Positions 34,169-58,700 of a stretch of DNA of 64,000 nucleotides are shown piece after piece; within the stretch, counting starts at the first letter, position 1; each line of letters begins with the position of its first letter. The notes below the pieces were generated by a model that did not search any database, was not told where the DNA came from, and saw only the letters and a program-made list of their open reading frames with translations. The stretch is from Aurantiochytrium sp. KH105 (lineage: Eukaryota > Sar > Bigyra > Thraustochytrida > Thraustochytriidae): assembly GCA_003116975.1 (NCBI GenBank), contig BGKB01000102.1, positions 62,001-126,000 on the forward strand, written 5' to 3'. The position numbers and the translations under genes are program-made.

Positions 34169-35941
34169 TTAGAACTTCTTCTTCTTCTTCTTGCTCTTCA
34201 TCATCGGTTTTGCAAAGGCTGACTTTGTCTGTTGCGGAGCTTCCACTTCTTGCTGCTTTTGCGCTGCTGATGAGACTGACTTTGAACCGACTTCTTCCTC
34301 TTTCTCCTCGTTAATTTCGCTGTAGCTGTCGGGGGTGTCCTCCTCGACCTCGTCGATGACGACCTCTTCGTCGTTCTTATTGTCTGTCTGGTCTTGAGGG
34401 CGCGAGGAGCTTGTCTCGCTGGCCGGGGCCATGGCCGTGTCGGAAGACTCCTTCGATACACCCGTGAACGTGGACGCAGGCGTGATCGGCTGAGGACTGC
34501 TGGGGGCTTTCACGCTTCCACGGTCGCTAGCAACAACAGCATCGTCTTCGTCCCCCCCCAAAGATCTTGGTACCGCTGCAACAGTTGCTGCTGCCGAAGC
34601 TTTGCTCTGAACAGATGGAGAAGGAGCAGGCGATGCGGCCCGTCGCTCGGTGGGCGCTTGTCCTTCTTCGACGAGGTCGGGCTCGTTGTGCCTAATATAC
34701 GGGTCCGCGCGAGGTCCCGGCGAGCTCGCCGGAGAAAGGACCCCGTCGTCAGTGAGAAACTTGTGCATGTTCGTCGACCAGGGTGCATCACCCACAGGCA
34801 ATGGAGCATCACCCATGGCGAGTTCCCGGAGTCCGCGCTTGAGCTTCTTAATCTGCACAAGCTGGTAGCGCATATCCTTTTCCCGCTGCTCGAGTTCTCC
34901 CCGCATTCCAGAAATTGCGGTCTCGTGTTCGCGCACCTTGATCTCGAGCTGCTTGGCGGCCTGATGCGCTTTCACGCGTTCCTGCTTATTGCTCTTTTCA
35001 AGAATTTGAATAGTGTGTTCCAACTTTTGTCGTTCCGTATCCCATTTTGCTTGTTGTTGCTCGGCGTCGATGGTGTCCCTTGTCTTGGCTTTTCCATTCG
35101 CTGCCTCGTACCGCCGGATCTCGCTCTTGAGATCCTTATTTCGGTCTGTGAGCTTCATGATGTGCTCGCGGTGGCGCTTCGAGTCCTCCTCGGCCGTTCT
35201 GGTCTTGTCGCGGTACTTGCGCAAGGTTTCGCGAGCAACGCGCAATTCTTCCTGAAGGTTTGTGAGCTTGGACGACCACGTTCCACGACTCTCTTGCTGT
35301 TTGGCAATTCGCTTGACGTGCGAACGCTGCAATGCTTGCAGGCCTTTGTTCTCTTCGACAAGCTGATCAATGGTGCGCTGTTTTTCTTCGACCTCGTTTG
35401 TAAGGAGGAGCACGCGGTCCGTCGTGAAGGCCTCTTTCATCTGCCGCTTCAATTGCTGGTTGCTTTTCTTGTAGTTTTCGAGCTTTTTCTGCAACGTTTG
35501 CACTTGCTTTTGCTTGGACTGGACAATCGCGCGAAGAGAGCGCTTCCCATTGTCGCCGCTGCTTCCGCGAAGTCCAGGCGCCCCAGCACCCTTGCTATTC
35601 ATTGTGGCCTCGAAGACCCGAGCGAAATCTTTGAGCTGCTTGCGAAGGACCTCGTTGGCGAGCCGGAGCTTTTCGATGCGCTCTTGCTCGCCCATGCCCA
35701 CGCTTGCCTCATCGTCTTCGGACGAGTCGCCAAGTTCTTCTTCATAGTCGTCAGCGACGTCGTTGTTCATCATGTTGTCGTCGTCGTCATCGTCGTCGTC
35801 GCCAATGTCATCGACGATGTTCTCGCGATCATAGTCCTCGGGTCGAGCTGCTTTGCCAGGTCCGCGCGAGGTGCCGCGCCGTTGTTGTTCTTGGTCATCC
35901 TCAAAGTCTTCCTGGCTGTACTCGCCGGAGTCGTCGTCCAT
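34169..35941 (-). CDS. Coiled-coil protein, lebercilin (LCA5)-like, 590 aa
   Basis: The ATG at 35941 starts MDDDSGEYSQEDFEDDQ, an acidic N-terminus with an Asp run (about residues 48-56) and Asn-Asn. From about residue 85 to 355 it is almost continuous coiled coil. The segment QTLQKKLENYKKSNQQLKRQ, then LVEENKGLQALQRSH and LRKYRDKTRTAEEDSKRHRE, resembles the lebercilin domain of LCA5-type ciliary proteins, but coiled coils are easily over-matched. The C-terminal 230 residues are Ser/Glu/Asp-rich and end in a Lys run. Zoospore flagella of thraustochytrids would make a ciliary protein plausible. The open frame continues upstream to a GTG only. Single exon; its 3' end lies about 150 bases from the Myb gene. 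Confidence 0.6.
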   Translation of the reverse strand: MDDDSGEYSQEDFEDDQEQQRRGTSRGPGKAARPEDYDRENIVDDIGDDDDDDDDNMMNNDVADDYEEELGDSSEDDEASVGMGEQERIEKLRLANEVLRKQLKDFARVFEATMNSKGAGAPGLRGSSGDNGKRSLRAIVQSKQKQVQTLQKKLENYKKSNQQLKRQMKEAFTTDRVLLLTNEVEEKQRTIDQLVEENKGLQALQRSHVKRIAKQQESRGTWSSKLTNLQEELRVARETLRKYRDKTRTAEEDSKRHREHIMKLTDRNKDLKSEIRRYEAANGKAKTRDTIDAEQQQAKWDTERQKLEHTIQILEKSNKQERVKAHQAAKQLEIKVREHETAISGMRGELEQREKDMRYQLVQIKKLKRGLRELAMGDAPLPVGDAPWSTNMHKFLTDDGVLSPASSPGPRADPYIRHNEPDLVEEGQAPTERRAASPAPSPSVQSKASAAATVAAVPRSLGGDEDDAVVASDRGSVKAPSSPQPITPASTFTGVSKESSDTAMAPASETSSSRPQDQTDNKNDEEVVIDEVEEDTPDSYSEINEEKEEEVGSKSVSSAAQKQQEVEAPQQTKSAFAKPMMKSKKKKKKF

Positions 35942-38035
35942 CTTGGCTACAAAGCGGAGTGTAGCCAGCCAGCCAGCCAGCAAGTCGGTCAGCGAGCGAC
36001 CCGTGTCACCGCCGCGCAAAGTCACGAGCCTTTTGCACGCTGCTGCGGACGCTCATGCACAAGTCCGAGGAGAGATGGGAGAGCCAAAGCAGGACAAGAC
36101 AGAGAGGAGAAGGAAGGACAAGACGGAGAGGAAAGGGAAGGAAGGAAAAGCTGAGAGGAAGGGCGCTACTTGTTCTATGGGTAGGCCGAATAGTGAGTGG
36201 CCTTTTGAGCTCGCAAGTGCAGTTTAAGCCTGCGCCTTGTTGTTCTTTCGGGCGAATAGTGATATCCAGATTTCCCGCTCGCTTACACGAGTCACTTTTT
36301 GGTCGTGGCTTCCTCGCTCGCTAGTTTTTTTTGCATTCCCCTCTTTATCACAAGCAACAAGAGTTATGCCTATCGGTGTAGCGAATTTTAGACAGATGGG
36401 TGCGCGCGTCAGATATGTGGCTGGGACAACTCAACGCTTCGGGTGCTTGCTACAACGGTGCGATGCGACGGAGTGCAGCGCGGCACGGTACGGTATGTCG
36501 CGTCGCGTCACCAAAAGGAATAGAATTAGAAAGAAATAGACAATGTGCGAAGCCAAAGGAAAGTTGAAAGAAAAGAGTTCTAACGGATCTCGAATTTTTT
36601 TGATTTTTGGTTTGGAGTAAAAAAAATCCGTTGGGAAAGACCCGTTAGACCCTTTTTCTCTCGAAATTTTCCGGCCTGGTTGCGCGAGTCATGCTTTCAT
36701 CATTTCTATCGAACGCACTGCATGAACATTCTCGCTGCATCGTTTCAAGATTCTTTCGGGCATAATAAATTGTAGCGCTGCATAGAAGTCGGTAAGAATC
36801 CACCCATGAAGCGCCAATGAAACTGCCGCGATAGCTTCTCGAGGGCTCAGTCAAGGCTCAAAGCGGTCTTTTGTTTTGGTTTCCAGTGAAATGATGCGGC
36901 GACGGTGCGGCACGCATGCGAACACTCCGGGTCACACAACGCGGCAAAAGTTACGCTCACGACTGCCCTGCCCCATGGGGCGCAACTTGCCCGCCTGAGG
37001 CGCGTCAGCGAGTGTGGTACGGGTGCTGCAGCACCAAAAGCAGCGCGGCGGAGTGCGGCGCGAACCACCGCGCTGCGCGGCGCGGCGCGACACACGGACG
37101 ACAGAATCGAGTACGAGAAACAAAGAGGGCTCCAGGCCTCGGTCTTAAAGTCGCGAGATAATCCAGCTAGCTCAGGTCCGTGTCGGGTCAATGCTGCACT
37201 TGATTCCCTTAGCTCGACGACACTGTGTGTGGCTAGGGACATCAACGCCTACACAAAGTGTGGGGAGTTGAGGTACAATTGAGCCACTAGCGACCAAGGT
37301 GAGGTGGAGACATGCGGCGAAGCAATTCGATCGTTCCGGTACGCGTGCCTGTTTCAAGCACGAGAACCATGTGATGCACGCAACGTAAACCAGTTTCAAA
37401 CATGTACAGAGTCGCGTCACGGGAGCTTGATTGCGACAGATCCGTTCCGGTGGCCTTTCAGGCAGAGAAAATGGCTCGCGTTGCAGACAACGGTATGAGC
37501 ACGCTTTGGGATTCTGATCAGTAAATTCAGCGAGCTATTCATTTCTCCGATCGCGTCTATAAACACTGTGCAGTACACCGTGGCGTCCGGATGAACGGAT
37601 CGAGGTCTCGCAAAGGGGAAAAGGCGCTTGCACAGACGTCAGAATAATAGTGAGATATCCGTTGTTGTATCCGTTGACCAGCACTGTGTTACACACCTGA
37701 TGCCAAAGAGTTCATGGCGCGGAGGAAGTTGCCAGCGGCGCGCGCTATGCTCCATCTTTCAAGTAACCAAGAGGGACAGCGAGGAGCTTGACGATCTAGC
37801 TTTCCAGGTCGCGAGGCAAACCTGAAACGCTGGCTTCGGGGCAAAAGCTTGCAAGCTTTGCTCCAAAGCAAGCGCGAGCTGCCCAAGCAACAAGCAAAGT
37901 AAAACAAAGAAAGTAAGGAGACGGGCGACGAACACCCAAGTTCGAGTACCTGGCAATTGCGGAGAAGAGGAAAACCCCACTTGAATCTGCCCGTCTTGCT
38001 TTGCTGGTGTCAAGTAAACCTTTTCATCAAGCACC
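35942..38035. promoter_or_regulatory. Divergent spacer, coiled-coil gene / opsin gene
   Basis: 2.1 kb with no supported gene. It contains G/A-rich low complexity near 36070-36170 and an A/T-rich stretch at about 36540-36660. A TATA-like CTATAAAC lies near 37556, roughly 480 bases upstream of the opsin start. No tRNA or repeat family was recognised. The promoter and 5' UTR of the opsin gene should lie in the right-hand part. Confidence 0.5.
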
Positions 38036-40078
38036 ATGATTGAGACAGACCAAGTTATGACGCTCGTCCTGTTCGATGAACTGAGCACCCTCGGAGCCCT
38101 GGTCCGCGGCGTTACCTCGGCAACATCGGTAATGCTTGTCATCTTCTACCTGTATCAGTGGCACTACGGCCGCAGTACGCTTTACTCCATTTACGTGCAG
38201 GTCGTGACCGCCCTTGTGTACGGTCTGGCGGCCGTTGGCAAGGGCGACTGGATGTTTGCGCGCGTTGCCTTTGGCGATGAGATTCGCCAGGTGGCCCTCG
38301 GTCGCTACATTATTTGGATGGTCACCTGCCCCGTGATGCTTTTTGGCTTCTTTGGTCTCATCAGCATGCTCGGTCCCAATGTGGAACCTGTCAAGGTGAA
38401 CTTCATGGTGATGAAGGATCTCTTAGTCATGGCCTTTGGTGTGACGGCAACCTTTCAGGAGAACCAGACTGTGCAGTACATCTTCCTCGCCTGCGCCATC
38501 ACCACCGTACTCGTTTTCATGACGGACGTCTACTACCTGGAGCGCGTCCGCCAGGAATACTTTGCGCAGGGCGATCTCCTGGTCTGGCTGCATGGCATCA
38601 CCGCGCTGCTCTTCATCTCGTGGGGCATCTTCCCTCTCATGTACTTTCTCGGCCCGCCCGTGCTTAACATCATGTCGCACGAGGGTGATGTGATTGGCCA
38701 TGCTATTGGCGATCTCATTGGCAAGAACCTTTTTGGCTTCGGTATGTGGTACATGCGTTACAACAAGCTTCTTCCGTACATTCAGAGCCAGGGTAACGCT
38801 GTCTGCGTGTACACTGGTTACGAGCTTGACCCGGAGAGCCACATGGTTCGCTACTCGACGCACATGGTCGTCCCGACTCCCGAGCACGACGAGGAGGAGG
38901 GCGACAGCGAGAAGGAGAAGAGCCGCGTGTGGAATGCCGAGCAGCGCGTCAAGATCCTCATCATTGAGCCGGCCGTAAGCTTCCAGCGTCTCTTCATGTA
39001 CATGCTCAAGGACGTGAACGTCGATGCGGAGATGGCCCTTGACCTCAACCATGCCAAGTCGATCCTGCGCCGTGGCCGTGTCGACGACTTTGAGACGATC
39101 CTCGTGAACCTGACGACCCACTTTGACCGCCCCAACGCACTCAAGGAGTTCAAGAAGATTGTCAGCGAGGAGCCCTTCCAGGTCCCGGTCCTCGGTTACA
39201 CCTTTGACGACAACTGCCTGGCCATGCTCGAGAAGGAGGACAAGCGCAACGAGCTCACCCATGGCATCGTGCACCACGTTCTCGATGAGGTCTTCCTCGG
39301 TGATCTTGTTCGCCACTGGGCCCAGACCTCGTACCTCTGGCGCGAGACGTCCCGTGCGCGTGAGGTCGAGTCCGAGATTCGTCGCTCTGCCAGCTCGCTC
39401 CACCTGATCCGCTCTTCGGCCGGCAAGACATTGCGTGACATGCCCGAGTTCCCGTCCAGCACCTCTGGCTCTGGCGCAGCAAGCTCGAGTGTCAAGCCCA
39501 TGGACGATGCCGAGTTCAACGCCGCCCTTGTCGCTCGGCAGCAGGCTCTCTTGATGCAGACACCTTCGTTCTACCAGCCGCCCCAGATGTACATGCAGCC
39601 GCCCCAGCCGCAGATGCAGCAGCAGATGCAGCCCCAGATGCAGCAGCAGCCCCAGCCACAGATGGTCGCCATGCCGGCATCGCCGCAGATGCAGCAGCCT
39701 CAGGGCGGCCTTCAGGTTCAGGTCCAGCAGCCAAGTCTTCCTCGCAAGAACAGCATTTCGGTGCCTAACTCGCCTGTGGGAAGCCTCTCGCGCCAGAACT
39801 CCTTCTCGCAGGGCTCCCCCGTGGCAAGTCTTTCGCGCCAGAACTCCTTCTCGCAGGGTTCCCCCAAGGCGGCCGGGCTTTCGCGCCAGAACTCCTTCGT
39901 GCAGGGCGCGCAGCCGATCACCTCGCTCGAGGGCGCAGGTGACTCAACGTGCTCCAATGACGGCTGCAGCAAACGGTCCGAGATGATTTGCGGTGGCTGC
40001 CATCAGGCCACCTACTGCAACCGGGACTGCCAGCTCGCGCACTGGCGTAATGGCCACAAGCAGGCCTGCAAGAAGTAA
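38036..40078 (+). CDS. Channelrhodopsin-family opsin with receiver-like domain and MYND zinc finger, 680 aa
   Basis: Residues about 15-250 form a seven-helix microbial opsin. TM3 has R90-Y-I-I-W94-M-V-T97-C98-P99-V, TM6 has F-I-S-W196-G-I-F-P200, and TM7 has D226-L-I-G-K230-N. K230 is the retinal Schiff-base lysine. These blocks match channelrhodopsins (TCPV, SWGxFP, DLxxKN) better than ion pumps. The position of the pump acceptor Asp (Asp85 of bacteriorhodopsin) is Ile93, and TM2 lacks the glutamates of chlorophyte cation channels. An anion-channel type related to labyrinthulean RubyACRs is therefore likely. Residues about 303-390 form a receiver-like fold (RVKILIIEP...ILVNLTT...VPVLGYTF) with Asn358 at the phospho-Asp position. 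Then come a Gln/Met-rich linker, RxNS repeats (about 570-625) and a MYND finger (C639-C678). Expected role: light sensing in the plasma membrane coupled to cytoplasmic signalling. Single exon. Confidence 0.88.
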   Translation: MIETDQVMTLVLFDELSTLGALVRGVTSATSVMLVIFYLYQWHYGRSTLYSIYVQVVTALVYGLAAVGKGDWMFARVAFGDEIRQVALGRYIIWMVTCPVMLFGFFGLISMLGPNVEPVKVNFMVMKDLLVMAFGVTATFQENQTVQYIFLACAITTVLVFMTDVYYLERVRQEYFAQGDLLVWLHGITALLFISWGIFPLMYFLGPPVLNIMSHEGDVIGHAIGDLIGKNLFGFGMWYMRYNKLLPYIQSQGNAVCVYTGYELDPESHMVRYSTHMVVPTPEHDEEEGDSEKEKSRVWNAEQRVKILIIEPAVSFQRLFMYMLKDVNVDAEMALDLNHAKSILRRGRVDDFETILVNLTTHFDRPNALKEFKKIVSEEPFQVPVLGYTFDDNCLAMLEKEDKRNELTHGIVHHVLDEVFLGDLVRHWAQTSYLWRETSRAREVESEIRRSASSLHLIRSSAGKTLRDMPEFPSSTSGSGAASSSVKPMDDAEFNAALVARQQALLMQTPSFYQPPQMYMQPPQPQMQQQMQPQMQQQPQPQMVAMPASPQMQQPQGGLQVQVQQPSLPRKNSISVPNSPVGSLSRQNSFSQGSPVASLSRQNSFSQGSPKAAGLSRQNSFVQGAQPITSLEGAGDSTCSNDGCSKRSEMICGGCHQATYCNRDCQLAHWRNGHKQACKK

Positions 40079-40223: not shown

Positions 40224-41920
40224 CTTGGAATGACTGATTAGCTAAATAAGCTACTACGACCATCCACTTGTCTCAAGTCAAGTTGGCGATGGACCAGCCT
40301 TTTAGTATACGTAGTATAGTAATTTTGCGATTCGAAGTTCTCAGCAAACCCAAAAAGTTGAGTAATTGGCAATGGCTTACTACGCGTTTAATCAATTGCC
40401 ACCTTTCAAGCCTAGGCCTGGTGGGATTCGGGAGGACAGGACACTGAGACGTGCTCCAAGCCAACTCTAATGAGAAACTTGTTCGGGAAGAAGCGCATGG
40501 GAGCTCCCTCGTCTCATCTTGGCCTAGATCCACGTCGTTTTTTCTGTCACTAGGGCCGTTTTCTAGCAAGTGCGAACCTAGGTGTGAAAAATGCTCACAC
40601 CCGTGCGACAGTGCGAAGAACAAGAGGAACATGAAGAACGTGGAGACGTTTCCTCCCCGGCACGTCCCTTGCACCGGCTGCGGCTGCTGCGACGCGAATG
40701 GCAGGGCCCAATCTGCACACTTATACTATACGTCCAAGCGGCCATTTCATCATCCGAAGCTGGCTGCCCTCGCCGGTCTTTGAGTTCGTGGCGACGACTC
40801 CCTTTCGATTGATGGCGTCCACAGCCACCCGTTCACTCTCACGACAATCTTTGCTTTCTTCACCCTGCGGACCACACTGACAAGCAAGCAAGCTTCAGCC
40901 CGCAAGCTTGCAGCTTTCCGTCATGGGAGCTTCGCACACCGATGGTCGCTTAGTAGCTTGGCTGTTCCACATCGCTTTTCTGCAGCTGCAGGTCGATTCG
41001 TGGCAGGCAGCCCGCTCCCCGCACAAGAGAGGCGCCTCCCCTCGAGCACAACGAAGAATGAATGAATGCATGCGCAGCGGACAGAGGTCCGCGCCGCTGC
41101 CGGCCGCGAAGCGCTCGATGATCCGCGAGCTCGGCTCCTCCCGTGCCATGTCGAGCCGCGTCGAGCCGCAGCCGCGTCGAGCTCGGTTCCTCTCGTGCCA
41201 TGCCGAGCCGCGTCGAGCCGCGTCGAGCGCGTCTGGGCGCAGATTCGATGTATGGAAAAAGATGCGCACACTAACACAAGTTGAACGTTCACGCGCGTGT
41301 CGAGGTGGGAAGGCGGGAACACATGCGCGGCGCTCGCGACGCGCCCGCCTGCTGCCGCGAGGGCCTCGGCTCGCGCGCGGCGAGGCGAGGCGAGGCGCGG
41401 CGCGGCGCGGCGAGGAAGGAGACGCCGCTGTCGCCGTCGCACTGTGCGCGAGCGCAGCGCGGAGGAGGAGCGGACCCGAGCGCGGAGGAGGGGACGATGG
41501 ACTGGGACGACACTGCCAGCGCGTGCACGACTGCAACAGCGCGTGCACAAGCGACCTCGGGCTGCTGCTGCTGCTGCGGCTGCGAGGCCGCGCCGACGCC
41601 GGAAGCTGAGCTGAGCTGAGCGGAGCTGAGCTGAGCGAGCGGCCGCGCGGCGTCGAGCCGAGCCGAGCTGTTTCGAGCCGTGCCTCGCCATGGCGCGGCT
41701 CATGCGCTGTCAGGCAACTCGTGCCCTGTCAACTCACGCACGCCCTGTCATGCCGTGCCGCGGCGAGGCTTGACGCCAAGCCAAGCCAAGCCGAGGCCCC
41801 GCGCCGAGGCCTCGCGCCGCAGAGCGCGGGTCGCCGCCGCAAAGTGCCCAGGCAGGCCCAGCGCGGCCAATGGCGGCCCCGGCGCGCGCCCGCAACGCAG
41901 CGGTGGGAGCGCGTGCAGGA

Positions 41921-41928
41921 AGAAAGAG

Positions 41929-42022
<94 letters not shown>
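41921..42022. repeat. (AAAG)n microsatellite
   Basis: About 24 copies of AAAG, the longest simple repeat in the window, 200-300 bases upstream of the antiporter ATG. It keeps an open frame on both strands (KERK-type on the +), but the unit of four bases and the lack of conserved sequence argue against coding. Confidence 0.95.
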
Positions 42023-42225
42023 GCGGCAGAGGACGGGGCCGCACGTGCGTCATGGCGTACACAAACACCCTTGGCTTGGCCATAGCTAGCGCCGCCGCGC
42101 AGCAAAGCCGGAACGCGGGGCCTGGCCCGGCTGGTCTGCGAGCCGAGGCCCGCTGCGGACGCGACTGCGAGGCGCGCTCGCAGGCAAGCAGCAGGCAGGC
42201 GGGCAGGCGCGGTCGGGCGAGGAGG

Positions 42226-44385
42226 ATGGAGAGCATGGCGGGCGACATGCTGGCTGGCGGCTGGCGCATGCTGGAGGGGACGGGCGGCGCCGACAGCTAC
42301 ACGTTCCTGGAGCTCTACGAGGCCATGGTCTTCATGGTGGCGCTCTGGGTGGCAGGCAAGCTCGTCACGCTTGTGGGCGCGCCGCCGCTCGTGGGCCAAA
42401 TCCTCACGGGCGTCTTTCTTGGACCGCACCTGGGCCACTTCGTGCCCAAGGTCGGCGCGTGGAAGCTCATCGGCGAGATTGGACTCATGCTCCTGGTCGT
42501 GGAGGCAGGTATTGAAGTCGATCTCGAGATGATCCGCCTCATCGGTCTGCGCGGCGCAGTCGTCGCCGTCGCCGGAAGCATGGTTCCACTGGCGATCGGC
42601 TTCTTCATTGGCCAGCACTTTCTCGGCCTTGACATCAAGGGCAGCTTCGTGGTCGGCGCCTCCGTGTCGCCGACAAGTATGGGCATCGCGCTCTCGGTCT
42701 TGCGCTCTGGAAAACTCCTCAACTCGCCAACGGGACAGCTCATCATCGCAGCTGCCGTTCTCGACGACATTATTGCGCTCATCCTGCTTTCGGAGCTCTC
42801 TGCCCTCGAGGACCCCACGGCCTGGAATGTGTTCAAGCCGATCTTTTCCGCCATCATGCTTCTCTTTGGCTTCGGCTTTATTGCCATCTACATCATCCCT
42901 GTCATTCTCAATCGCTACGTGTACCCGCACGTCCCGGCACGACATGAGGATAACGTTGCTCTCGGCATGCTTTTCCTCCTCACCCTCGGGTTGGCCCCTG
43001 CGGCACGTGCGAGCGGCGGCAGCTACCTTTTGGGCTGCTTTATTGCCGGGCTTTCATTCTGTACATCTCACCAGGTTGAACGCGTCTGGGTGTCCCAGGT
43101 CAAGCGGATCCTTACATGGCTTCTCCGCATCTTCTTCGGCTGCACCATTGCCTTCGAAGTCCCTATTGAATCTTTCACCTCTCTGGAGGTCGTCAAGGAC
43201 GCTTTCATTATCCTCGTTGCGCTCGTGGGAAAATTAGCAACCTTTATTTGGGCTCGCCCCCTGAACAGATTCAATGCTCTGGTGGTGGCCTCGGCCATGA
43301 GCGCTCTCGGCGAGTTCGCCTTTATCGTCGTCGTATACGCCAAACAAGAGGACTACGTAACCGAGGATCTTGCGGCCTCCATCATTATGGCCATTCTCAT
43401 CACCATTATTGTAGCTCCCATTTGCCTGCGTCTGGTTATTCAGTACTTTGCTCGGAAATCGCATCGCGCTGTTGCAAAGGCGCGCGACGATACTGGCGAA
43501 GACGCCAAGGGCAACCCGCCCCTCTATTACTTTATGCAAACGCGGTGCTCCGGCAGCATCGGTTTGCAGGATCGTCTTCTTCGTACGCTCATCGACTCGG
43601 GACTAAAGATTGTCGATATCCGGTCCTTTCACCCCCGCGTCAACGATCTCGATGTCGACATCATTTTCGAAGCCTTTTTGTGCGACGATGGCTTCCGCCT
43701 TCCCGCATCGCGATACCGAGCGCCCCTGCCCGAAGAGGAGGAAAAAATCAAGCTTCGCCTCCGCGCCCTTTACGAGGATCTCAAGAAGGCGATTCGAGAC
43801 CCGCAGAACGGCGCCGTTCGCGTGGGACGCTGGTACGCAGGCATCCGCTCCGAGGAAGACGAACTCGACACCGAAGCAGCCTTTGGTCTCGCCGAGAAAC
43901 TCATGCAAGAGAGAAATCAAGAATTTGACGTAGATGTCAATCGAATGGAACACGATGACGACATGTACGGCCTGCACGGGTTCGTTCATAGATCAATGAG
44001 CGACATCGACTTCCTTCGCAATCCTCGCGGCTCGTCGGTGCGCACGGGAATGAGCGCTTCGCAGCGTCATCGTCATGATATGGTGTCTTCGCCAGGACGC
44101 GCAAGCTCTAAATTTAAGAGTGTTCGCCACAAGGGCCCCAACCGCTACAGCTCACAGTACGGTTCTTGGGCAGTCTCGGAAGGCATGGGCGACAGTCCTC
44201 GCGGATCAGCAACCAGTCGACGCTCTTCTGCTGCTGCAAGCATTGGTCTGCTTCAAGTTTACGAAGATGACAACGTTGACTCTGAAGCGGAGCCCATGGA
44301 AGATGACGATGAAGACACTTCTTCTGATGGTTCGGGATCGTCTGACATTCAGGTGGAGATCTTGGACAGTCGGCGCGATGACTAA
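42226..44385 (+). CDS. CPA2-family cation/proton antiporter, 719 aa
   Basis: A Na+/H+ exchanger-fold membrane protein (monovalent cation:proton antiporter, KefB/CHX-like). About 12 hydrophobic helices span residues 25-420. Marks of the family are PPLVGQILTGVFLGPHLG near the start, GEIGLMLLVVEAGIEVDL, the Asp pair D180-D181 in AAVLDDIIALIL (the ion-binding helix), and SALGEFAFIVVVYA late in the domain. A hydrophilic C-terminal tail of about 290 residues follows, ending in Asp/Glu/Ser-rich sequence; no RCK domain is evident. It would exchange K+ or Na+ for H+ at the plasma membrane or an endomembrane. I start at ATG 42226 (MESMAGDML). The frame is open for another 182 codons upstream, but through Arg-rich sequence and an AAAG microsatellite. 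Single exon. Confidence 0.9.
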   Translation: MESMAGDMLAGGWRMLEGTGGADSYTFLELYEAMVFMVALWVAGKLVTLVGAPPLVGQILTGVFLGPHLGHFVPKVGAWKLIGEIGLMLLVVEAGIEVDLEMIRLIGLRGAVVAVAGSMVPLAIGFFIGQHFLGLDIKGSFVVGASVSPTSMGIALSVLRSGKLLNSPTGQLIIAAAVLDDIIALILLSELSALEDPTAWNVFKPIFSAIMLLFGFGFIAIYIIPVILNRYVYPHVPARHEDNVALGMLFLLTLGLAPAARASGGSYLLGCFIAGLSFCTSHQVERVWVSQVKRILTWLLRIFFGCTIAFEVPIESFTSLEVVKDAFIILVALVGKLATFIWARPLNRFNALVVASAMSALGEFAFIVVVYAKQEDYVTEDLAASIIMAILITIIVAPICLRLVIQYFARKSHRAVAKARDDTGEDAKGNPPLYYFMQTRCSGSIGLQDRLLRTLIDSGLKIVDIRSFHPRVNDLDVDIIFEAFLCDDGFRLPASRYRAPLPEEEEKIKLRLRALYEDLKKAIRDPQNGAVRVGRWYAGIRSEEDELDTEAAFGLAEKLMQERNQEFDVDVNRMEHDDDMYGLHGFVHRSMSDIDFLRNPRGSSVRTGMSASQRHRHDMVSSPGRASSKFKSVRHKGPNRYSSQYGSWAVSEGMGDSPRGSATSRRSSAAASIGLLQVYEDDNVDSEAEPMEDDDEDTSSDGSGSSDIQVEILDSRRDD

Positions 44386-45896: not shown

Positions 45897-46722
45897 CCCG
45901 AGCCTCTGAGGACGTGCATAAATCACCACCGTCGCCAGTTCCTTCTCCTCCGTCCTCGCCGTCGCCAGACTCGCCTGCGACCGCGCCCTCGTCCTCCTCC
46001 TTGTCCTCCTCCTCGTCGTCGCCGCGAGCCGCTCCGCCGGCGCCCACCCGTCCTCGCCACATCTCGACCTCGTCATCGCGGCCATCCGCGCCGCGAGGCC
46101 GCCCGCCCCGCGTCGCTGGGGCCCGAGCATCTTCCGCGTCTCCGCTGCCTCCCTCCCTCCCTCCCTCCCTCCGCGCGCCCGCGCTCGCGCGACGCTGCTC
46201 CGCGCCGCGCGATTCTGGTCTGCGCCGCGCGCTCTGCTCTGCCAGGCGCTGCCGCGGCGTGCACTCGCCGCAGAGGTACTATAAGGCAAGGGAGCGAGGG
46301 GAAATGGAAAATATCTGCGGAACCCCAACTCGCCTCGGCTCTTCTTCGCGCAGCCCGGGCAGCGCGACGTCGGCGGGCAGAAACCCAACCCGAGCGACAA
46401 ACAAACGGCGCCCGCGCGCGAGCGGCGGGAGGGGCTCGGGGCCGCGCGAGCGCGGAGAGCGGGAGCGGCGCGGCGGGGCCGCGCGGCGCCCCGCGCAGAG
46501 ACCTCGGCCGAAGGGACAGGCGAGGGCCAGCAGGGGCGGAGAGCGAGAGATCAACGTCAAGCAGGAGCACGACAGCTGACGAGCTGACGCTGACCTTCGG
46601 GGCCTCCAGGTCCTCGTCCTCCTCGCGGTCTCGCTCGGCAAAGCCGAAGACGACGGGGGAGAGGCAAGGCGAGACGGACCGCAGGAGTGGTGGAGGCAAG
46701 TGACAGACAGACAGCAAGCGAA
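45897..46722. promoter_or_regulatory. Divergent promoter region, NFACT-R / giant SH3 protein
   Basis: 826 bases of GC-rich DNA, with a CTCC microsatellite at 46147-46172 and a TATA-like ACTATAAGG near 46278. Either gene could be driven from it. If an upstream ATG of the NFACT-R gene were used, part of this region would code. Confidence 0.5.
46147..46172. repeat. (CTCC)n microsatellite
   Basis: About six copies of CTCC in the divergent promoter. Confidence 0.9.
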
Positions 46723-49700
46723 ATGCGGGCAGAGGCGCTCTACGACTTCGAGGCCCAGAATGACGATGAGGTGAGCCTGGAGACGGGCGATATCGTTGTC
46801 GTCACGGACTCAAGCGATGACGCATCGGGATGGTGGAAAGGAAAACGCGAGAAAGACGGACCCGCGGCCGTGGAGGGTCTCTTTCCCCGTGACTATGTCA
46901 AGATCGTTGAAGAGGCCGAGGCTGCTCCCGCGCCTGCGCCCACCCCTGTTCCTGCTCCAGCGCCAACACCGGCGCCAGCGCCACCGGCGAAAACGACCAC
47001 GCCCAAAACCAGAAATCGCGTTCGCGTTCTCTGGGAATTTGAGCCAAGCGCTGATGACGAATTGTCAGTCAAAGCCGGAGATGTGATTGAAGTCGTCGAT
47101 TCCGAAGACCCAGAGTGGTGGTATGGATCGATCCGCGGCCAGTCCGGCCTCATCCCCAAAAATTATTGCGAAGAGCTACCTGCATCGTCGCAAAGCGGCG
47201 CCACGGCGCTACCGGGATCAGGAAGGTCAGCCTCTACGTCATCTGCCTCTCCTGCCGCCGGGCCTGCATCATCCGCAACGTCGCAAGCAGAAGGAACATC
47301 GACCGTATCTGCCACGCCGACGCTTCGTGTCAATCTCAACAGTCAGAACAGTCTCAGTGGCTCAAGCAACGGAAGCGCCCTACCGGCGAGCGCGGTTCGT
47401 GTCGGAACAAATTCACAGGCAGGGGGCGGAACAGCAGGTCCCGCGACAACCATGAATGCAGCACAAGGCAAAGGCTTCATCATCGGGAGCGAGCCGCTCT
47501 GGAGACATCCAGGCTTCATCGGGATGTGCGCAGATCGCTACATCTCAGGCACGTGGCCTTCGAACCCGACGGACGAGTTTACGTCGCTGCGCATGACCCT
47601 CGAGTTTTTCATGCTTGCAATGGAACGTCTTGTGACAAAACTTGGCGATAAGTGGGGCGTGCGCAGTCTGAAGAACGCTTTTGCAATGGCAGGCTGGGTC
47701 GTCGCAAACCTTCCGCTGAATCCGATGAACCAGGACCAAAATTTTCACCTCTTCTTGCATGGATTCGTCCAGCGGGTGAGGGGAATGCGGAACGGCGACG
47801 TCATCTGCTTTCCCGGCGGCTGGACCTCGGATACGTCCATTGTCGACCTCGGCGAAGATACCGACGACTCATCAGACGATGATACTGAAGATGGCAGCGG
47901 TTCCTCCTCCTCTGGGGCCGGCAACAGTGGCAGCAGGCGGAGCTTCAAGCGCAACAGCATGCGCAAGCGGTCAACTGCAAGCAGTGCCAAGGACGATGGC
48001 AACAACAAACCAGAGGAAAGCAGCTCTCGTCCTACAAAGCCGTCGCGCTCGGCCTCGTCCAATCGCATCAAGGTAGGAGGGAATCGCGGCGTGGTGTCTC
48101 ATCTCGTCATGTACATTTTGACGCGCCATGAAAGCACCTTTTCGCTTTCTGTCTGCAATACAGGGCATCCTGTTGCTGAACAAGAACAGCAAATGCAGCA
48201 AAATAGCGCTGGCGACCCCGCGACGCGCTGGGATGGCTTCGACTACCACGCGGCCCGTCTCGATGAGGAAACGGGCAAGATGAAGCGCAATCTTTGCTAC
48301 ACGCTCACTGATATTCCCTGCGAGCGTCTTTTGGACGCTTCATTTTGGTTCCTTCTTTTCCGGGCCAAAATTTACTACCATTCCAAGAACACCGCCAAAA
48401 TGGTTTACGAGACGCTGCTTCCATACCTTTCGCGCCAGCACCTGTACATGAACCGCGCCTCCTTTGACCTTTCGGTAATGGACATGCGCACACAGCGCGA
48501 CGTGGCCGATGGCTCTTTCTTTCACCTGCTCAAGGCGTGCATGCGCCAGTGCGTGCTCTCCCTGGGACTCACTACCTTCCAGGCCAAGCACGTTTCGCTG
48601 CTCCTGCGCATGGAGGTCTGTGAGATGATGCAAGAAGATCTGTCCCGAGTCTCCAACTTGTACGCCGGAGACGCTATTACAATGCGGGCCGCACTGCAGC
48701 AGCTTGCGGACAATGCGGCAAAGCGGAGTCTCGAGGAAAAGAACTCGCCAACCACCACGGACCATCTCCAGCAGATTGCCGGGCTCATCAACGACATCGA
48801 CGGCCGCATTTCTGGCCTGCTAAAACCGATCGAGGACCGCCACCTGCCTCCCGCCCTGAGCTTTCCGAATAGCGGAAAGATCGCCTGGGCCGCGTGCATG
48901 CCCATGTTTGGCCCTTTTCGTCGCGACTGCAGTGTCGAGCACCTTGCCGGCGGCGCAGCGCCGCCTCCTATTTTGCGACCTGTGCAGCTCACGCTCGTCC
49001 CCGACGCGATCGAGGACTTTGCCGACGTGGCCATTACCCTGCGCCACTGTGTGAACATTTGCACATTGCTCGACAACCAAAAGGATCTCATCCGCAACAC
49101 GTATTGCATCCGCATCGCGCTAATTCAGCACCTCTTTACGCAAGTCATACCGCTTCCCCTCGCCCGGAACGACCCCAAGCGCCCAGACCATTGTTTTTGG
49201 TACGCCAAGCCCATGCGTTACGAGACCCAGGCAGATATTCTGCGCCTCCTCGAGCTCGTGGGTCGCCACTTTGTCAGCGCAGCACTGTCCGTGCGGGTCA
49301 CGCGGAGCTTTGATGCTGCGCGTATCATTACCATGGCCGCGATTGCCACCGTGGCCGATTGCGTGGTGCGCGTTCACGCATGTGATATCCCTTCACAGTT
49401 TTCATTGCACTATGATGGTCAGGCTGCAGGCCCTGTCCATCCTTTTGCCTTTGAAATTGGCTACTTTGTTGAAGAGAGCGGCTTTCTCGCTTTTGCTGAC
49501 CCATATCTCACCACGGCGCGAACGCAGATCCTCGACTATTTTACGGCCCTTCGGGACGCCGTCCGCAGCGATCACGTACTCTTTCGCTTCGAGCACTCGA
49601 TGCTTTTCGGTGATGCGGAGCGTCGTCTCGTGAACCAGCTTTGCGTACAGATGGGCTTTGACCGCTCCAAGGGCATCCCGGGCCTGGCTGCGTACTTTGG

Positions 49701-52700
49701 TGGCCAGGATCCGGCGCTTGTTGATCATTACCCCGAGCTCGCGCTTTTCCGAGACATCGTCTTCCTCTTCAAGTCTCTCTTGGCCCCGACTGCAAATGCA
49801 CTCCCTGAGCTTCGCCATTGGAAAGCCACAGATGCGCGTCTCATTTGGACAGTGGGCAAGCCTGTCGACGATGGCAATGCAGCACCTCCTCCGGACGCGC
49901 CTCAAGGGACTTCGATGCAGCGCGTGGGTCTCGACGTTGCTGGTTTTGGAAAGGAAAGGCTTGCTTGTGCAGCGTACGTTCGCACCTACCGCGCGGATGC
50001 TCAGATCGAAAAGTCGACTTTGCAGTCTTTGTTGGATTTTGTAGGTCTCGGGAGCAACACCATGCCGCGCGCGCCTCCATCGGGCGCCAATCCATCCAAC
50101 CTGGCAGGGAAGAACATCAATACCGAGGATGATGTCCTTCACGTCAAAGACCTTCCCGACTTTGGAAACAAGATTCGTGCCAGCGACTCGGAGCTGCTCC
50201 TGCAGTATCTCACAGCACCATACTTGCGTATCCCTCTCGTACTGCAATTCTTTGCGGACCAGATTCGTATATCTGCGCTCGCAGAGTCCAAGCTGCAAGA
50301 GGTGTTAGATGCTTGCCTGTTTGAACCCGGCATGTGGCAGCGCGATGGCAAGGTTGAGGAGCCACGAACTGTGCCTGCGTCCGATCGCGCTCACCTCGCC
50401 ACACCCGTGGGTCTCCTTTTTAACGAGCTTCAGCACTCGCCTCGTGTCGTCCTTGATGCGATCGAGAACATGCTGTTTTACGCCATGGAGCTTGATGTGG
50501 GTCGCTACTCTCCCGGTTCCTCGCAAGTTATCCTCTACGTGACACGTCTCGTCGTGCGCGTGATCGAGTACATGGGGTTCCTCATTGAGCGCGACGAGCT
50601 CGAGCAGGAGCGTGTGCAGCGCACAGGGGATGCCATCTCGCGCAGCGGTCCGCGTTCCATGGCGCGCGGTCTCCATTTGCCAGGCACGACGGAAGCGTCC
50701 ATTCCGTATCTTCGGGAACTTCGCGACAAGCTGCGCGACAAGCTTGACTCCTCCATTTATCCCATGCTCGAACAATGGTGTCGCGTGGCCACCAAGCAGC
50801 GCAAGATGCAGCTCGCTTGCGTTTTCCACGCCCATATGGCATATCTCTACCTGGGCACAAAGGAGAGCCAGCTTGATCGGCGCATGGTCTCGGCGATTCT
50901 TATTTCCTACATCTTCGTTACGGTGAACTTTCGCTTTCACATGGAGCTTGATCCCGAGAGCGCTTCGCGCGGCGTCAAGCGCGCGGGGAAAAAGGGCGAA
51001 GGCGAGAGCGACGATGCTCTCAATTTGGGCATCTCGCCCAACGAATTCTTTTCGCTCTATCAAAAGCATCGTGGCAAAATCTTGCGCTGGCTCGAAGCAA
51101 ACCCTGCCGATTGCAACAAGACCATGGAGGCGATCGTCAAAGTTATTAGTCTCACGGATGAGCGCCAAACCGGCATGGTCACTGAATCCAAGGGCGACGA
51201 GGACGAGATGCTCATCCGAAGCTGGCAGTCCCCCGAGATTGCCGGCTGTCTCGGTCGGTTCATGCCCGATACCGAAGTCAGCGAGTTGCGGCGCTGTCTC
51301 AGCGCTGCCGAAGAGGTCCGCGACTTTGAAGAGTGGATGCGCGTCGTCACGACGCAGAGTGTCGACACCGAGATTAACGTGCAGCTCGGCGAGTTCACTT
51401 TGAAAAAGCACCCAATGAAGCTTCTCGACGACAAATTTGTCTACATGCCGGATTTTCGTGAGGTTTTTGGCGATATTGACCCATCGCTTGGCCACGGTGT
51501 GCAGTGCGCCGAGGTTAAGGACACCGTGAACCGAAGTTGGAAGCGCCTCGTAGGTCGCCGGCACGATGTGCAGCTATGGGATCCGGACACGCGCACAGAA
51601 ATCGCAAATCCATTTCAGCGGCCATTCCCAAGTGCCCTCGAGCCTGCCGAAGCATGGGTGCAAAAGGCGCTCGAGCCCTATGCGCAGACAGTGTTGAGTC
51701 ATGTTGAGCTCTTTCTCCCACGCGCTTCCGCTGCAAAGCAGAGTTTCGCTGTGCTTTGCGGTCTAGTGCAACCGGCGCGCAATCTCTACCAAGATCCGAA
51801 TACACCTGGCGAGGCGTCTGCAGCAGCGTCACCGCAGGCTCGCATGGCCTCGACGCTGCTCGAAGTGGTTGTCTTTCAGAACCCACGTGTCGTTCACGTC
51901 TATGAGGTCCTCGAGCATGGCCGGCGCTGGTACCGTTCGCTCTGTTACAGTTCGGACCCACGTTTTTGCCTCGGCGACTTTGGCGAGGTCCCGACCATGT
52001 CATGGTCCACGGGACGTCCCGTCTTGAGCATTGGGTCGGTGCCAACGACTGCGCGTCCTCCGTCACCGTCGTTGGTCATCAGTCGTAACCTAACCAAGGA
52101 GATGGGCGTCCAAGAGTACATGCCACGGAGACTGCTGAAAGGTCTTTTGCCAGAGACCCTGCTTGACGAGTATGAATTCTGGCAAGACGTCGAGGACAAG
52201 TCGATTATTGGATATGAAAAGGCGGAAATTCAAGATTCAAGCAAGTCCGGAGAAGGCGGAGAAGCTACGAGCAGGCTCAGCGCACAGGATCGGCTGAGCC
52301 GCGTGATCAAGCCGCGAACGCGATTGCGCGTTGAAATCATTCCTCATGGCCCAGATGACACGAGCGGGTACGGGAATTCCAAGGCATATGCTCTTGTGCG
52401 GCGATTCGTGACAATTGACTCCGGCCCGCGAGCCGGTACGGAGGAATGCCACACGCTCCTCAATCTCTTGCACGCGCCCGCGTCGAGCCCGCTCAAGGAT
52501 TTGTCCAGCATCTTGCTTCGCGTCGATAATCTCAGCCACATTCTCGTTTGGACCTTTGCAGATGTTCAGACGCCCTCTGACGTCTGTCGCATCGACCTTG
52601 TCGAGCTTCCACGCGTGCGTCTCTCATTTCGTCTTCAGGAAGAGGCTTCCCAACCGGGCGGTCCCGTGGACCTCAAGCTTTTCAGCCAGGAACACACGGG

Positions 52701-55700
52701 TCTTTTTATGAGTGCAAATCGTGATCCTCGCATTGTCGATCTCGTTCGGGGCCTACCACACGCAGTTCTTTTGGAGAACTGGAAGGGCGAGCTTTTTATT
52801 CTCGTCGCCGCTACCGCGTACCCCACTCGACCCGTGGTTCCCAACATGATCTTTGCAACGGAGCTTGTGCTGAATCGCACAAGTCCAGAGTGGAATGCAA
52901 ACCTCGGAGATGTGCGACACTATCTGTACTCGGTCCATCTCTCGAAGATGTTTCTCTTTACGCCAACATTGAGCTCGGCACTCTACCTCTTCCTGCTTCG
53001 CTTCATGGCTCGACGCTACGATCTCGCCTTTCGGCTCGCTGACTCCTGCGTGACGGACACGCCGCTGACAGCTGAAGAGGACCAGATTTTGGATCTTTTG
53101 GGTAGTCTCAATTTCGATATGCATCCTGATGCGCATGCTTGTCGTCTCAAGCTCAGTCTGGTGACGCTAGGTGCTCGCAGTATCATGCGTCTCCCCTGGG
53201 ATCTCGTGCAGGAGATGTCCTTGTACGCCATCAAACATCGCCGCGTGGCGGCAAGCTGCCGTCTTTCCGTATCCGAAGAGTTGACCTTGTTGGAGGAGGT
53301 GTCGTTGAATGCGCCCGGACGCAACCTTTTGCGTGCGTCGAAGCGGAACAATGGTCAGATTCTTTTCAACCGTCGCGCCCTGCTCAACGCGATGCAGCTT
53401 ACCGCGCTCGGGCAAACCTCGCAAGCTGGCTCGGATGAACTCATCGTCTTTCACCCTCCCCGGCCGCGACCGAGTGTGTGCTTCGATCAGGTCCGCGACG
53501 ATACGGCCTTGGAGGACCGGAAAAACGCCTCGTCCTGGCGCAAGACCTTGCGGGCATTCTCTTCGCTCAAGCCAATGTCGTACGATCGTCCGACAGACCT
53601 GAGTGGTGTCGAGGGTCTGCGTCTTTTTCACGATATGATCAATCGAGGCGTCTCGATTCGTGGTGGCAAGACCTCCAAGGGGTTTCCCTTTTTATACGAG
53701 CTCATGACTGGTACGCTGTCGGTGCGTGTGTTGGATGACGATAATTGTTTCAACTGGGCAAGCGTTCTCTTGCACATGATGCCGCCACACAAGTTCAAAA
53801 AGACGCAGACCATGACATCGGTGCTACGCATCCTGGCCAACAACCCGGAGCTGATTCGCGATATGCCAAAGTACGAGGACGATCGCAAGCACAAATTCAC
53901 GATTATTTTCAAGGGTCAGAACGTTATTCAGCGTCTCTTGGAAAAGTGCAACTCTACGCTACGCAGCAAAACGGCGAGTATCAAATGGCCGCCTACGACG
54001 ACGCAATTCACGCCGTGGCGCCCCGGAACACACGTTAGTCTACCACTCTCCCCGAACCCGCGCCGCGACCGTGCATGGCTCGCGCCCCGAGTGCTCGACC
54101 TCGGGCTCGAGAGACGCGAATTCGGCCCGCTCGAGGCGACGAGCCCAGGCGGAACCAATGTTGTTGGACTCGATGCACAAGAAGCGCGCGCCTTTGCAAC
54201 AGCTCCGATTGACTCGATTGGCCTTGCGGCACACGTTTCAAAGGAGTCGCGCGGAAGTCTTGGACTTGCGAAAATTGATCTTGTGCCAGGAGGCAACCCC
54301 GAGGCCCTCTTGCAGGTCGACAAGCATGCCGTGGCGCGGTCACACATTGCGCTTGACTTGCTCAAACGCATGCGCGACGACGCGGTCGCCTTTGAGGAAA
54401 TTACGAACGGTGCAACCATTGAGAAGTTGAAAGATCGCGCGAAGGTGCAGGATCTCATTCTCAAACTCGAGCAGCTCTACGAACGGGACACGAAGATTGC
54501 CGAGGCATCCATTACGAGTGTGCTGGATCTTGCCAACTGGGTCGACGTTTCGACCAAGGACGCCTATGGCGAGTACGGCATGCGCAAGCGTCTTGGATTC
54601 TTGCTCAACCAGTACAGTGGCAACGAGCCTCGCATTTGGTTTGAGCTCCTTGTTGGCAATCTCATGTCGAACTTGGGTGACTTCCATCTTTCGCAGCTTA
54701 ATCCCTTTCTCACGCGGGAAACTTTGGCGGAGGTTCACGACATGTGCATTGCTACGCTCATGCGCGTAAACCGGATGGCGCAGACCCTGCGTGCCATTGG
54801 AGCCGCGCACGATCTCTACCGTGCGCTGGCTTCTGCCGATCCGGAGCCCGCACTTCAGCTCAAGAGCGATGCTGTCGTCAAGGAGCTCGCCGCGAAGCGT
54901 CACTACGTCAAACAACCGGGCGCCGGCCAGGGACGCTACGAGCTGGATCCGCGTTTCCTCGTCTTTGAATTTACCTACAGCATTCTTTTGCGCAAATCGC
55001 AGGTTGAACTGGTGTATGACTTTATGGGCGCTCTGCAAAATGGAGATTCGCGGTGTCATCAAATGATCATGGGCGCCGGAAAGACCACGGTAGTGGGCCC
55101 CCTTCTGGCGCTTCTCCTGGGCGATGGCAAGTCGCTGGTTGTCCAAGTCGTCCCCAATGCTCTTCTCGAGTTTTCTCGGGCTGTGATGCGTGACAAGTTC
55201 TCGGCCATCATTCAGAAACCGGTATACACCTTTGTGTTTGATCGTTTTACCAGCGTAGACCGGCAAATGTACCGTAAGCTGCTCATTGCGCGCAAGTCTC
55301 GCGCCGTGGTGTGCACCACGCCCACAGCACTCAAGAGTTTCTTTCTCAAACTCGTCGAGGCTGCGCATCTCTTGGACGCGGCAAAGTACGAATCCGAGGA
55401 CGACATGCGTAGCGCACCGAGCATCATCAAGTCCTTCTTCAAGGAGGCCCTTAGTCTCACGAGCAAGGCACGGGAAATGCTTACCAAGGAGGAGGCCACG
55501 CGTCTTCGCGAGCAAATGCGGTTGTCTAGCCGAATCCTTGATCTCTTTCGCGATGGTGTCCTCATCCTCGATGAAGTCGACCTCATTCTGCACCCGCTCC
55601 GGTCCGAACTGAACTGGCCCATCGGAAACAAGGTGCCCCTTGATTTTACGCGAAGCCACGTGAAGGGTCACGATGGTATGCGCTGGATGATCCCTTTTCA

Positions 55701-58700
55701 CCTGCTTGACGCCTTTTTCGCGCGGACTGCAGGTCAAACGACGCTAGACTACACGAGCTCTCGGTCCGCGGCAACGCTACTCAAGAGCATCAACGAAGCG
55801 ATCACCAAGGGTTGCGAGCTGAACTTGATGCAGCAGCAGCCGCATTTGGTACTGCTTTCGCGATCTTTTTACACGGCCAAGTTACGCAGCCTGCTGGCCG
55901 AATGGATGCTTTTGTTTCTCTCAATGCGCGGCTTGCATGGAATCTCGGACCCGGATGCTCTTGATTACATGACGCGCGGCCCCAAGGGCGCCCCGAAGGC
56001 GGCCGAGGTTGTCAACAGCAACCTGACCGACGAAAACGTGAAAATGATCAATCTCGCGCGCGAGTGGATCGGTACGTTTACACCGTTCGTTCTTGCCAAG
56101 ATTGACCGCGTCAAGTACGGTCTGCTCAACGCGACGGACTTGGCCAAATTCATGGCTCTTGACCCGCTCATGCCCAAGAACCGGAAACTTTTGGCGGTGC
56201 CCTTCACCGGCAAAGATTGCCCGTCGCGGGCATCAGAGTTCTCTCACCCCGACGTTGTTATTGGCCTTACTATCCTTGCCTACCGGTACGAGGGACTTCG
56301 CATGTCGGACTTCATCTGGCTCTTGCGTCATCTCCGCGAACGCCTCGAGGAGGATGTTGGGCCGTACATCAAACGCGAGGCGAGTCGTTTGTACATTCGT
56401 TGGGTCTCGCTCGCGGGCGGCCGCGTGCGGGGCACCAAGGTAGAGTCGCAGAAGCGTCGCTTCAAAGCAGGAGGCGGTGCCAAGACGGATGTCGCCGCCG
56501 AGTCCAAAGTGGTTTCTGCGGATGAGGCGTTGGCTTCAGACGAAGCCAAGGAAGTGGAAAACAGCGATGTAAATGGCGTGCGCGAAATCGAGCTGGATGA
56601 CCTGTGGCCGCTGCAGTTGATCGATTTGTCAGACACCTATCAAGTGGGCGTCTTGTATCGCTTGCTGCGGAAATCACCCCATGCAATCCTCTACTATCTC
56701 ACGACGTACATCTTCCCGGAGACCTTGCAGCACCACGGCCTCAAAATTTCTGCTTGCGGCCAGGAGCTTGGCGGCAGCATCATGTTTAAGCGCCGACTGG
56801 GTTTTAGTGGAACGCCTTCGGACCTCTTGCCTGTGGAGTTCGGAGTATGTCACTATGAGAAGGGATCAGACGGCAAAATGCTTCATTATTTGACGGATCC
56901 AAGCGTGATGTCGATCCGTCTCGTGGAAAGGGGCTGGTCCGTGGAAAGCCTGCTGCGATCGATTGCTACAATGCGACCAGCTTACCAGGCTCTTATTGAC
57001 ACCGGGGCGCTGGTCACCGGATACAGTAACATTGAGGTCGCCGCTTTTCTGCTGCGAAACGGGCTTCCTGAGGATGTGGAGGGTGTTGTTTTTCTAGACA
57101 GCGCGGACCGCAAGATGGTCCTTACTCGATCGGGCAAGATCATTCCACTGGATCGATCGGGTATTGCCCCCGACCGTCGATTCTCCTTTTACGATCAGGT
57201 CCACACAACCGGCATGGATATCAAGCAAGCGATCTCAGCCCGCGCAGCGCTAACCCTCGGCAAGGATATGACCTTTCGGGACTATGCGCAGGGTGCCTTT
57301 CGCATGCGCGGCATCGGCGTTGGGCAAACCATTGAACTCCTGGTGATTCCAGAGGTCGACATGTTGATCAAGTTGCAGGTTGCTGCTGGCCATGGCAAGA
57401 CTGTGAGTCCAAGCGAGCTCTCCCAGCTTGCTGCCGAAAATCTCTCTGCGCAGGAATCGCAGCGAACGCGTGACGAGGCGCAGAGTCTGCAGCGAACACC
57501 TCAACTTGCAGAGCGGCTGCGCGAAGTGACTGAGTGGCTCGTCATCAACTCCATGAGGTCAGAGAAGATCCAATTCAACTTGCTTTGCGAGCAGAGCACG
57601 AGTAATGTGTGGCGCAAGCGTGCTCATCACTTTGTTCTCATGAATTCGGCCAAGGTCGGCGAACGCGGCGATGCAGCTGCCGGGAATCAATTTCTAGAAA
57701 AGTCGATCGATGCCTTTCGTGAGCGTGTCGACTACTCTGTGGCCACTGCTGTACCTCGGGCGCAGCCATTTGCCGAGAAGATTGAGAATCTCGTCAACGA
57801 TCACAGCGATCTCATTGCTTCCGAAGGCGATCGCGAGGTAATCACTAGCATCACACGAAAGGTCAAGGACGCCGAGGAACGCAGTCGCGTCGCGGCACGA
57901 GCTGGCACGCTCGTGCCAACGCTCGCTGGCGTGGAGGGCGTCGGATCGCAAGACGAGGTGGCCAAAGAACAAGTGTTCAACGCGGAACAGGTCCAAGAAC
58001 AGGAGCAGGAACAAGAACAGGAACAAGAACAAGAGCAAGAGCAAGAACAGGAAAAAGTCCAACAGCTCGAGCCAGAAGAGTACGTCAAGAAAAAGTACTC
58101 TCGCAAGGACGAGTCTCCTGTCCCATGGGATGTGGAACTTTTGGGCAAAGCCAACGCCGCGCCGGCCATGAAGTTCTTTCCATGCTCCGAGTTTGCGATG
58201 CACCGCAAGCTTACCGAATCGCCCGTTCCCATTACCTTTCCCCAGTCCATGTACATTAGCCGCAATCACTACGATCCAGGATGGAGTCTGCACACACACC
58301 GTCGCATCAAGAACGTCATTATTCTCATGGAGTGGGTCCCAGACCCGGGCGCTTTGACAAATTCGGCGACACTCTTGGGCGCTTCGCAAACGCATCTTTC
58401 CAAAGACACCTGGAGCCATCTTTCTGGGGCGTTCAACATGTTTGATATTGACAGCGATCAGCGACTCAAGAAAGACGAGCTTTTCGAGCTCATGCTGGCA
58501 TTAGACGTGGCGCCCGATGACCTTTTGCGCCTTGGGAACGAGATTGCCGGCTTTGAAGACGTGACCATTGAAGCCGATGAGTCAAAGTTGGCGCGCTCCG
58601 GCGACCAGGGTGAAGCGAGAACATGGGAAGATCAGCGGAAGCAACTGGAGAACTATTTGGCAAACTCGTTGCAAGAGTCCCTGCAGCGGCTTTTGCAGCG

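Follow-up and report, generated by a model that had tools for sequence, protein, structure and literature searches.

A single open reading frame of Aurantiochytrium sp. KH105 encodes a channelrhodopsin-like opsin followed by a receiver fold that has lost its phospho-acceptor, an array of phospho-site-like motifs and a MYND zinc finger (Table 1). Established here are this architecture and its conservation and, for the receiver, both the fold and the loss of active-site residues. We favor, with a probability of about 0.6, the reading that the protein is an anion channel gated by light, a member of the labyrinthulean family, probably used in zoospore light responses, and that its tail serves as a scaffold or tuning device and takes part in no phosphorelay.

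One open frame and its copies

Positions are those of the window, i.e., the whole stretch of 64,000 nucleotides that was analysed. The opsin motifs RYIIWMVTCPV, FISWGIFP and GDLIGKN and the retinal lysine K230 were all found as an earlier note on this DNA had described them, and the three further modules that it placed behind the opsin (receiver-like domain, motif array and MYND finger) do lie with it in one open frame of 680 codons.

Table 1. Features of the opsin gene, in window coordinates
Feature	Position	Strand	Basis
Single ORF: opsin, pseudo-receiver, motif array and MYND finger, 680 aa	38036..40078	+	Open from the first ATG
Microbial (type 1) rhodopsin domain, channelrhodopsin-like, residues 31-241	38126..38758	+	Pfam PF01036 (Bac_rhodopsin), E 6.4e-22, over its cut-off
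Retinal-binding Lys230 (= ChR2 K257), preceded by Gly229 (Ala in HfACR1)	38723..38725	+	
Pseudo-receiver domain, residues about 304-440	38945..39355	+	AlphaFold2 model, Foldseek, VIA-align 2, profile comparison
Asn358, end of strand beta-3, place of the phospho-acceptor Asp	39107..39109	+	
Long predicted helix past the receiver fold, residues 418-459	39287..39412	+	Models; low confidence in the full-length model
Gln/Met/Pro-rich low-complexity linker, ends approximate	39605..39733	+	Sequence; tandem repeats 39575-39664
Four basophilic phospho-site-like motifs: LPRKNS, then LSRQNS three times	39737..39910	+	Tandem repeat 39769-39907
MYND zinc finger, residues 643-678	39962..40069	+	PF01753, above the curated cut-off

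A search of the genome (76 Mb, 367 contigs) recovered a second copy of the gene on another contig (G000:C99), 99% identical and with its frame kept, taken here as the other allele. The two copies differ at 38 synonymous and 6 nonsynonymous sites (pS 0.083, pN 0.0038), the synonymous/nonsynonymous counts for individual modules being small (3/1 for the MYND finger, 2/0 for the receiver). The closest public protein, with 99% identity, comes from another thraustochytrid, Hondaea fermentalgiana (P0002), and the modules opsin, receiver and MYND finger also follow one another in this order in a more distant homologue (P0003), which is 45% identical across the first two. An Aurantiochytrium protein labelled MMETSP0958 (P0004), a label that we take to denote a transcriptome, begins in TM7 behind the retinal lysine and ends with the MYND finger. 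Its label carries the taxon id 87120, which today designates a fungus although the name starts with Auranti-, perhaps a label error.

Could an error of gene model or assembly have joined the opsin to an unrelated MYND gene? The public Hondaea record is named 'Programmed cell death protein 2', a name suiting only its finger, as such an error might produce. Against this stand the uninterrupted single frame, the low pN/pS, and the same order of modules in the second genomic copy, in P0004 (from residue 237 on) and in the 45%-identical homologue. An assembly accident is thus given a negligible probability, because of the near-identical second copy with its mostly synonymous changes, the Hondaea protein, P0004 and P0003. 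No stop or splice was seen between residues 260 and 640, and P0004 spans residues 237-680; only indirect evidence, namely the frame being open in both copies, places residues 1-236 on one transcript with the tail.

Other genes share the window. A frame of the sodium/hydrogen exchanger family (PF00999, E 8.5e-39) lies downstream of the opsin on the same strand (41635-44382, +), and a frame of 4865 aa (46594-61188, +), unbroken over 14.6 kb, carries two SH3 domains, DUF3638, DUF3645 and EF hands, together with a Vps62 match under its cut-off.

A channelrhodopsin-type opsin of the labyrinthulean family

The earlier assignment to the channelrhodopsin type is borne out, and the family is that of the labyrinthulean anion channelrhodopsins (ACRs): the HfACR1 paralog of the same genome aligns with the window's protein (hereafter the query) through opsin and receiver together (residues 28-457, 35% identity, E 1.7e-83). 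Within the opsin domain, the query is 52% identical to P0003, 38% to P0005 and 36% to HfACR1. Rhodopsin matches in the genome amount to six, corresponding to three loci in two copies each, namely the query gene and a divergent pair. The pair, on contigs C105 and C37, consists of HfACR1 (L009:6280-8214, +) and a third opsin paralog (L009:1771-4152, -), whose frame is interrupted, probably by introns, unlike those of HfACR1 and the window's gene, each of which is one frame.

The RubyACR identity that the earlier note had brought up does not hold for the query, HfACR1 being a separate gene. The tuning residues of HfACR1 are F104, M143 and A242 (PMC12448745), and the paralog at L009:6280-8214, which carries exactly these three, was identified on this basis; all three differ in the query, where I93, V131 and G229 occupy the corresponding columns. 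Both proteins have an opsin followed by a pseudo-receiver and a Thr at the place of ChR2 E90, but HfACR1 gave no MYND match. HfACR1 is listed among anion channels (PMC8815786). Since replacement of its Met by Val shifted its absorption to the blue (PMC12448745) and the query has V131, the query opsin would be expected to absorb to the blue of HfACR1.

In the comparison with solved structures, channelrhodopsins take the first places. Among the 55 chains matched by the query, the best eight are channelrhodopsins or their derivatives (best E 3e-15, up to 8.5e-11), followed in ninth place by the rhodopsin Gll0198 (E 7.8e-9), with the anion channel GtACR1 further below (E 3.2e-6). A profile whose opsin columns came from the relatives only gave the same kind of ranking, with channelrhodopsins as its nine best matches (E to 3.1e-19) and the next one at 5.6e-11, among the best 60 of 100 matches. 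GtACR1 and the KCRs fell among pumps in both rankings, that of the query and, within the same best 60 of 100, that of the relatives' profile. Closest of all the solved structures stand the channelrhodopsins of chlorophytes and derivatives of these, neighbors that we take to be mostly cation channels.

At the places equivalent to those of ChR2, taken from the alignment to solved relatives and with ChR2 numbers in part assumed, R120, C128, D156, D253, K257 and N258 are retained (R90, C98, D128, D226, K230 and N231), while E82, E83, E90, E97, E101 and E123 are replaced by Y, S, T, A, K and I, respectively. The replaced glutamates would agree with an anion channel without proving one, and the loss of Glu90 is by itself no proof of anion selectivity. 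The ranking of solved structures, with chlorophyte channelrhodopsins or their derivatives closest and GtACR1 lower, counts against such selectivity.

The change of all three HfACR1 tuning residues, together with a long and conserved tail, would also suit a sensory rhodopsin that signals through this tail to a bound partner and has lost its channel function. We consider this rather improbable, as all six of the ChR2 residues listed first above are kept, and as A. limacinum has three named proteins, AlACR1 to AlACR3 (PMC12221091), against three opsin loci in the genome searched here.

A receiver fold without its phospho-acceptor

The relatives were compared as a set of seven family proteins, the query and six others, P0002 and the second genomic copies being left out of the alignments as near-identical. 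The receiver-like domain reported earlier is present as a fold, recognized by an AlphaFold2 model (mean pLDDT 70.3) for which both Foldseek and VIA-align 2 found receivers, but it has no phospho-acceptor and, being found in all seven family proteins examined, it is not special to the query. None of the Foldseek matches attained an E value of 0.001, and among the matches listed TMq did not exceed 0.51. The family profile was also compared with six of the genome's own receivers, drawn from 36 receiver matches; it scored 53.8, when 100 column shuffles gave at most 18.6. With an E limit of 10, Pfam gave nothing for this region in the query or the six relatives, and none of its receiver models matched any of the seven proteins.

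Active-site residues are missing throughout the family. The position of the phospho-acceptor Asp is held by Asn in six proteins and by Ser in the seventh, with Asp in none. The first acidic residue is Glu311 in the query. Nor does any of the seven have the active-site Lys of strand beta-5, there being no Lys in residues 408-427 or in the corresponding stretches of the relatives; just where it would stand (at an H, Q or F) was judged by eye, the hhalign match ending short of it. Because the phospho-acceptor is replaced and this Lys is absent, the domain is, judged by its residues, a pseudo-receiver, with the fold kept and the usual phosphoryl transfer predicted to be impossible.

The motif array and the MYND finger

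Further along the tail, four motifs of the type hydrophobic-x-R-x-x-S start at residues 568, 584, 599 and 615, with their serines at 573, 589, 604 and 620. Shuffled query tails held 0.27 such motifs on average, and none of 5000 reached four; the four are nevertheless not independent, because three of them sit in one 45-base tandem repeat of three copies (39769-39907). In the corresponding shuffle test across the family, which ignores tandem duplication, p was up to 0.02 for P0001, P0003, P0004, P0007 and P0008, 0.39 for P0006 and 1.0 for P0005. P0004 also has four such motifs, and the LSRQNSF array proper occurs in two of the seven proteins, the query and P0004.

The MYND finger of the query scores 30.7 bits (E 3.3e-7) against a Pfam cut-off of 22.7 and is matched in three of the seven, the others being P0004 (34.4 bits) and P0003 (24.0 bits, barely over the cut-off). 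Its nearest solved relatives are the MYND chains of DEAF1, CBFA2T1 and ZMYND10 (best E 0.0013). As far as these sequences tell, the finger and the LSRQNSF array are all that sets the branch of the query apart within the family. When the genome was searched with the MYND part, one other locus only was matched, in two copies and with 36% identity (L012:1619-3007, +). It encodes a MYND protein starting with MGGCVGKS, possibly, we assume, an N-terminal lipid anchor.

A possible role for the tail

Taken together, these features suggest a channel that may be anchored or regulated through its cytoplasmic tail. In the sequence of events that we propose, light would isomerize the retinal on Lys230 and the seven-transmembrane (7-TM) channel would open. 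The pseudo-receiver would hold a receiver fold that accepts no phosphoryl group by the normal route. A basophilic kinase for Ser/Thr, of the CaMK/AMPK/PKD type, could phosphorylate the LSRQNSF array, and a partner bearing a proline-rich motif may be bound by the MYND finger, so that the tail would determine where the receptor is located and how it responds. The class of kinase and the type of MYND partner are presumptions drawn from motif knowledge, and we infer anion selectivity, use in zoospores and every step of tail action.

Use in zoospores would be consistent with data from A. limacinum, in which vegetative cells are significantly below zoospores in AlACR1, and for AlACR2 and AlACR3 the difference, in the same direction, falls short of significance (PMC12221091). 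The counterpart of the window's gene may be any of these three. A frame with a domain of the ciliary protein Lebercilin (Pfam E 2.7e-10) lies head to head with the opsin at a distance of about 2 kb (window 34172-36052, -). It is possible that both share a promoter region active in flagellated cells.

The tail might instead tune the channel directly, acting on the 7-TM domain and altering its selectivity or kinetics, with the MYND finger as a minor stabilizing piece. Cytoplasmic domains are reported, according to the titles of cited works, to alter the photocurrent kinetics of KnChR and the nitrate preference of GtACR1. We nevertheless hold this to be unlikely, if less so than a purely sensory function. 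The full-length model, which is poor (pLDDT 51.3), leaves residues 460-660 mostly without predicted structure. Moreover, MYND fingers generally serve in binding.

Beyond the favored scaffold or tuning role, a broader scenario can be sketched, quite tentatively and with doubt outweighing belief. Labyrinthulean channelrhodopsins would descend from a rhodopsin linked to two-component signaling, would have lost the phosphorelay and kept the pseudo-receiver, present in each family protein compared, and one non-Ruby channel would then have acquired the array of kinase sites along with the finger. Light would thereby have two outputs, the flow of ions and the recruitment of proteins.

Comparison with known systems

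The earlier note held the MYND finger to be an undescribed part of opsins, and nothing contrary was found: among open-licence papers, which here do not include the RubyACR paper (it may mention these domains), none described by its title an opsin with a MYND finger or a channelrhodopsin with a receiver domain, and the word MYND was absent from three papers on the subject. The 7-TM domain has been described as enough by itself for channel activity, and constructs without the tail would therefore miss whatever it contributes. With parts that can now be identified (pseudo-receiver in 7/7, MYND finger in 3/7), the role of this tail becomes testable, and for optogenetics the query represents a natural channel that may recruit proteins too. 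Inactivation of genes has been reported for A. limacinum (PMC10016063).

Channelrhodopsins joined to further domains are already known, as ChR-FimV, ChR-MED15 and ChR-UL36 (PMC7693036), and resemble the query in this respect. Unlike it, they are algal and carry other domains, neither MYND nor receiver being named in the section of that source on these three (PMC7693036). Closer in their order of modules are the histidine-kinase rhodopsins and 2c-Cyclop, in which a microbial rhodopsin is likewise followed by a receiver, but these have a histidine kinase, a receiver with its Asp (D1092 in Cr2c-Cyclop1) and a cyclase (PMC6284317). In contrast to 2c-Cyclop, the query gave no kinase or cyclase match and has Asn in place of this Asp. 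For the receiver itself, a likeness can be seen to the pseudo-receivers of plant PRRs, CikA and NblR, which, to our knowledge, are not joined to opsins and which, like that of the query, keep the receiver fold without the usual phospho-acceptor.
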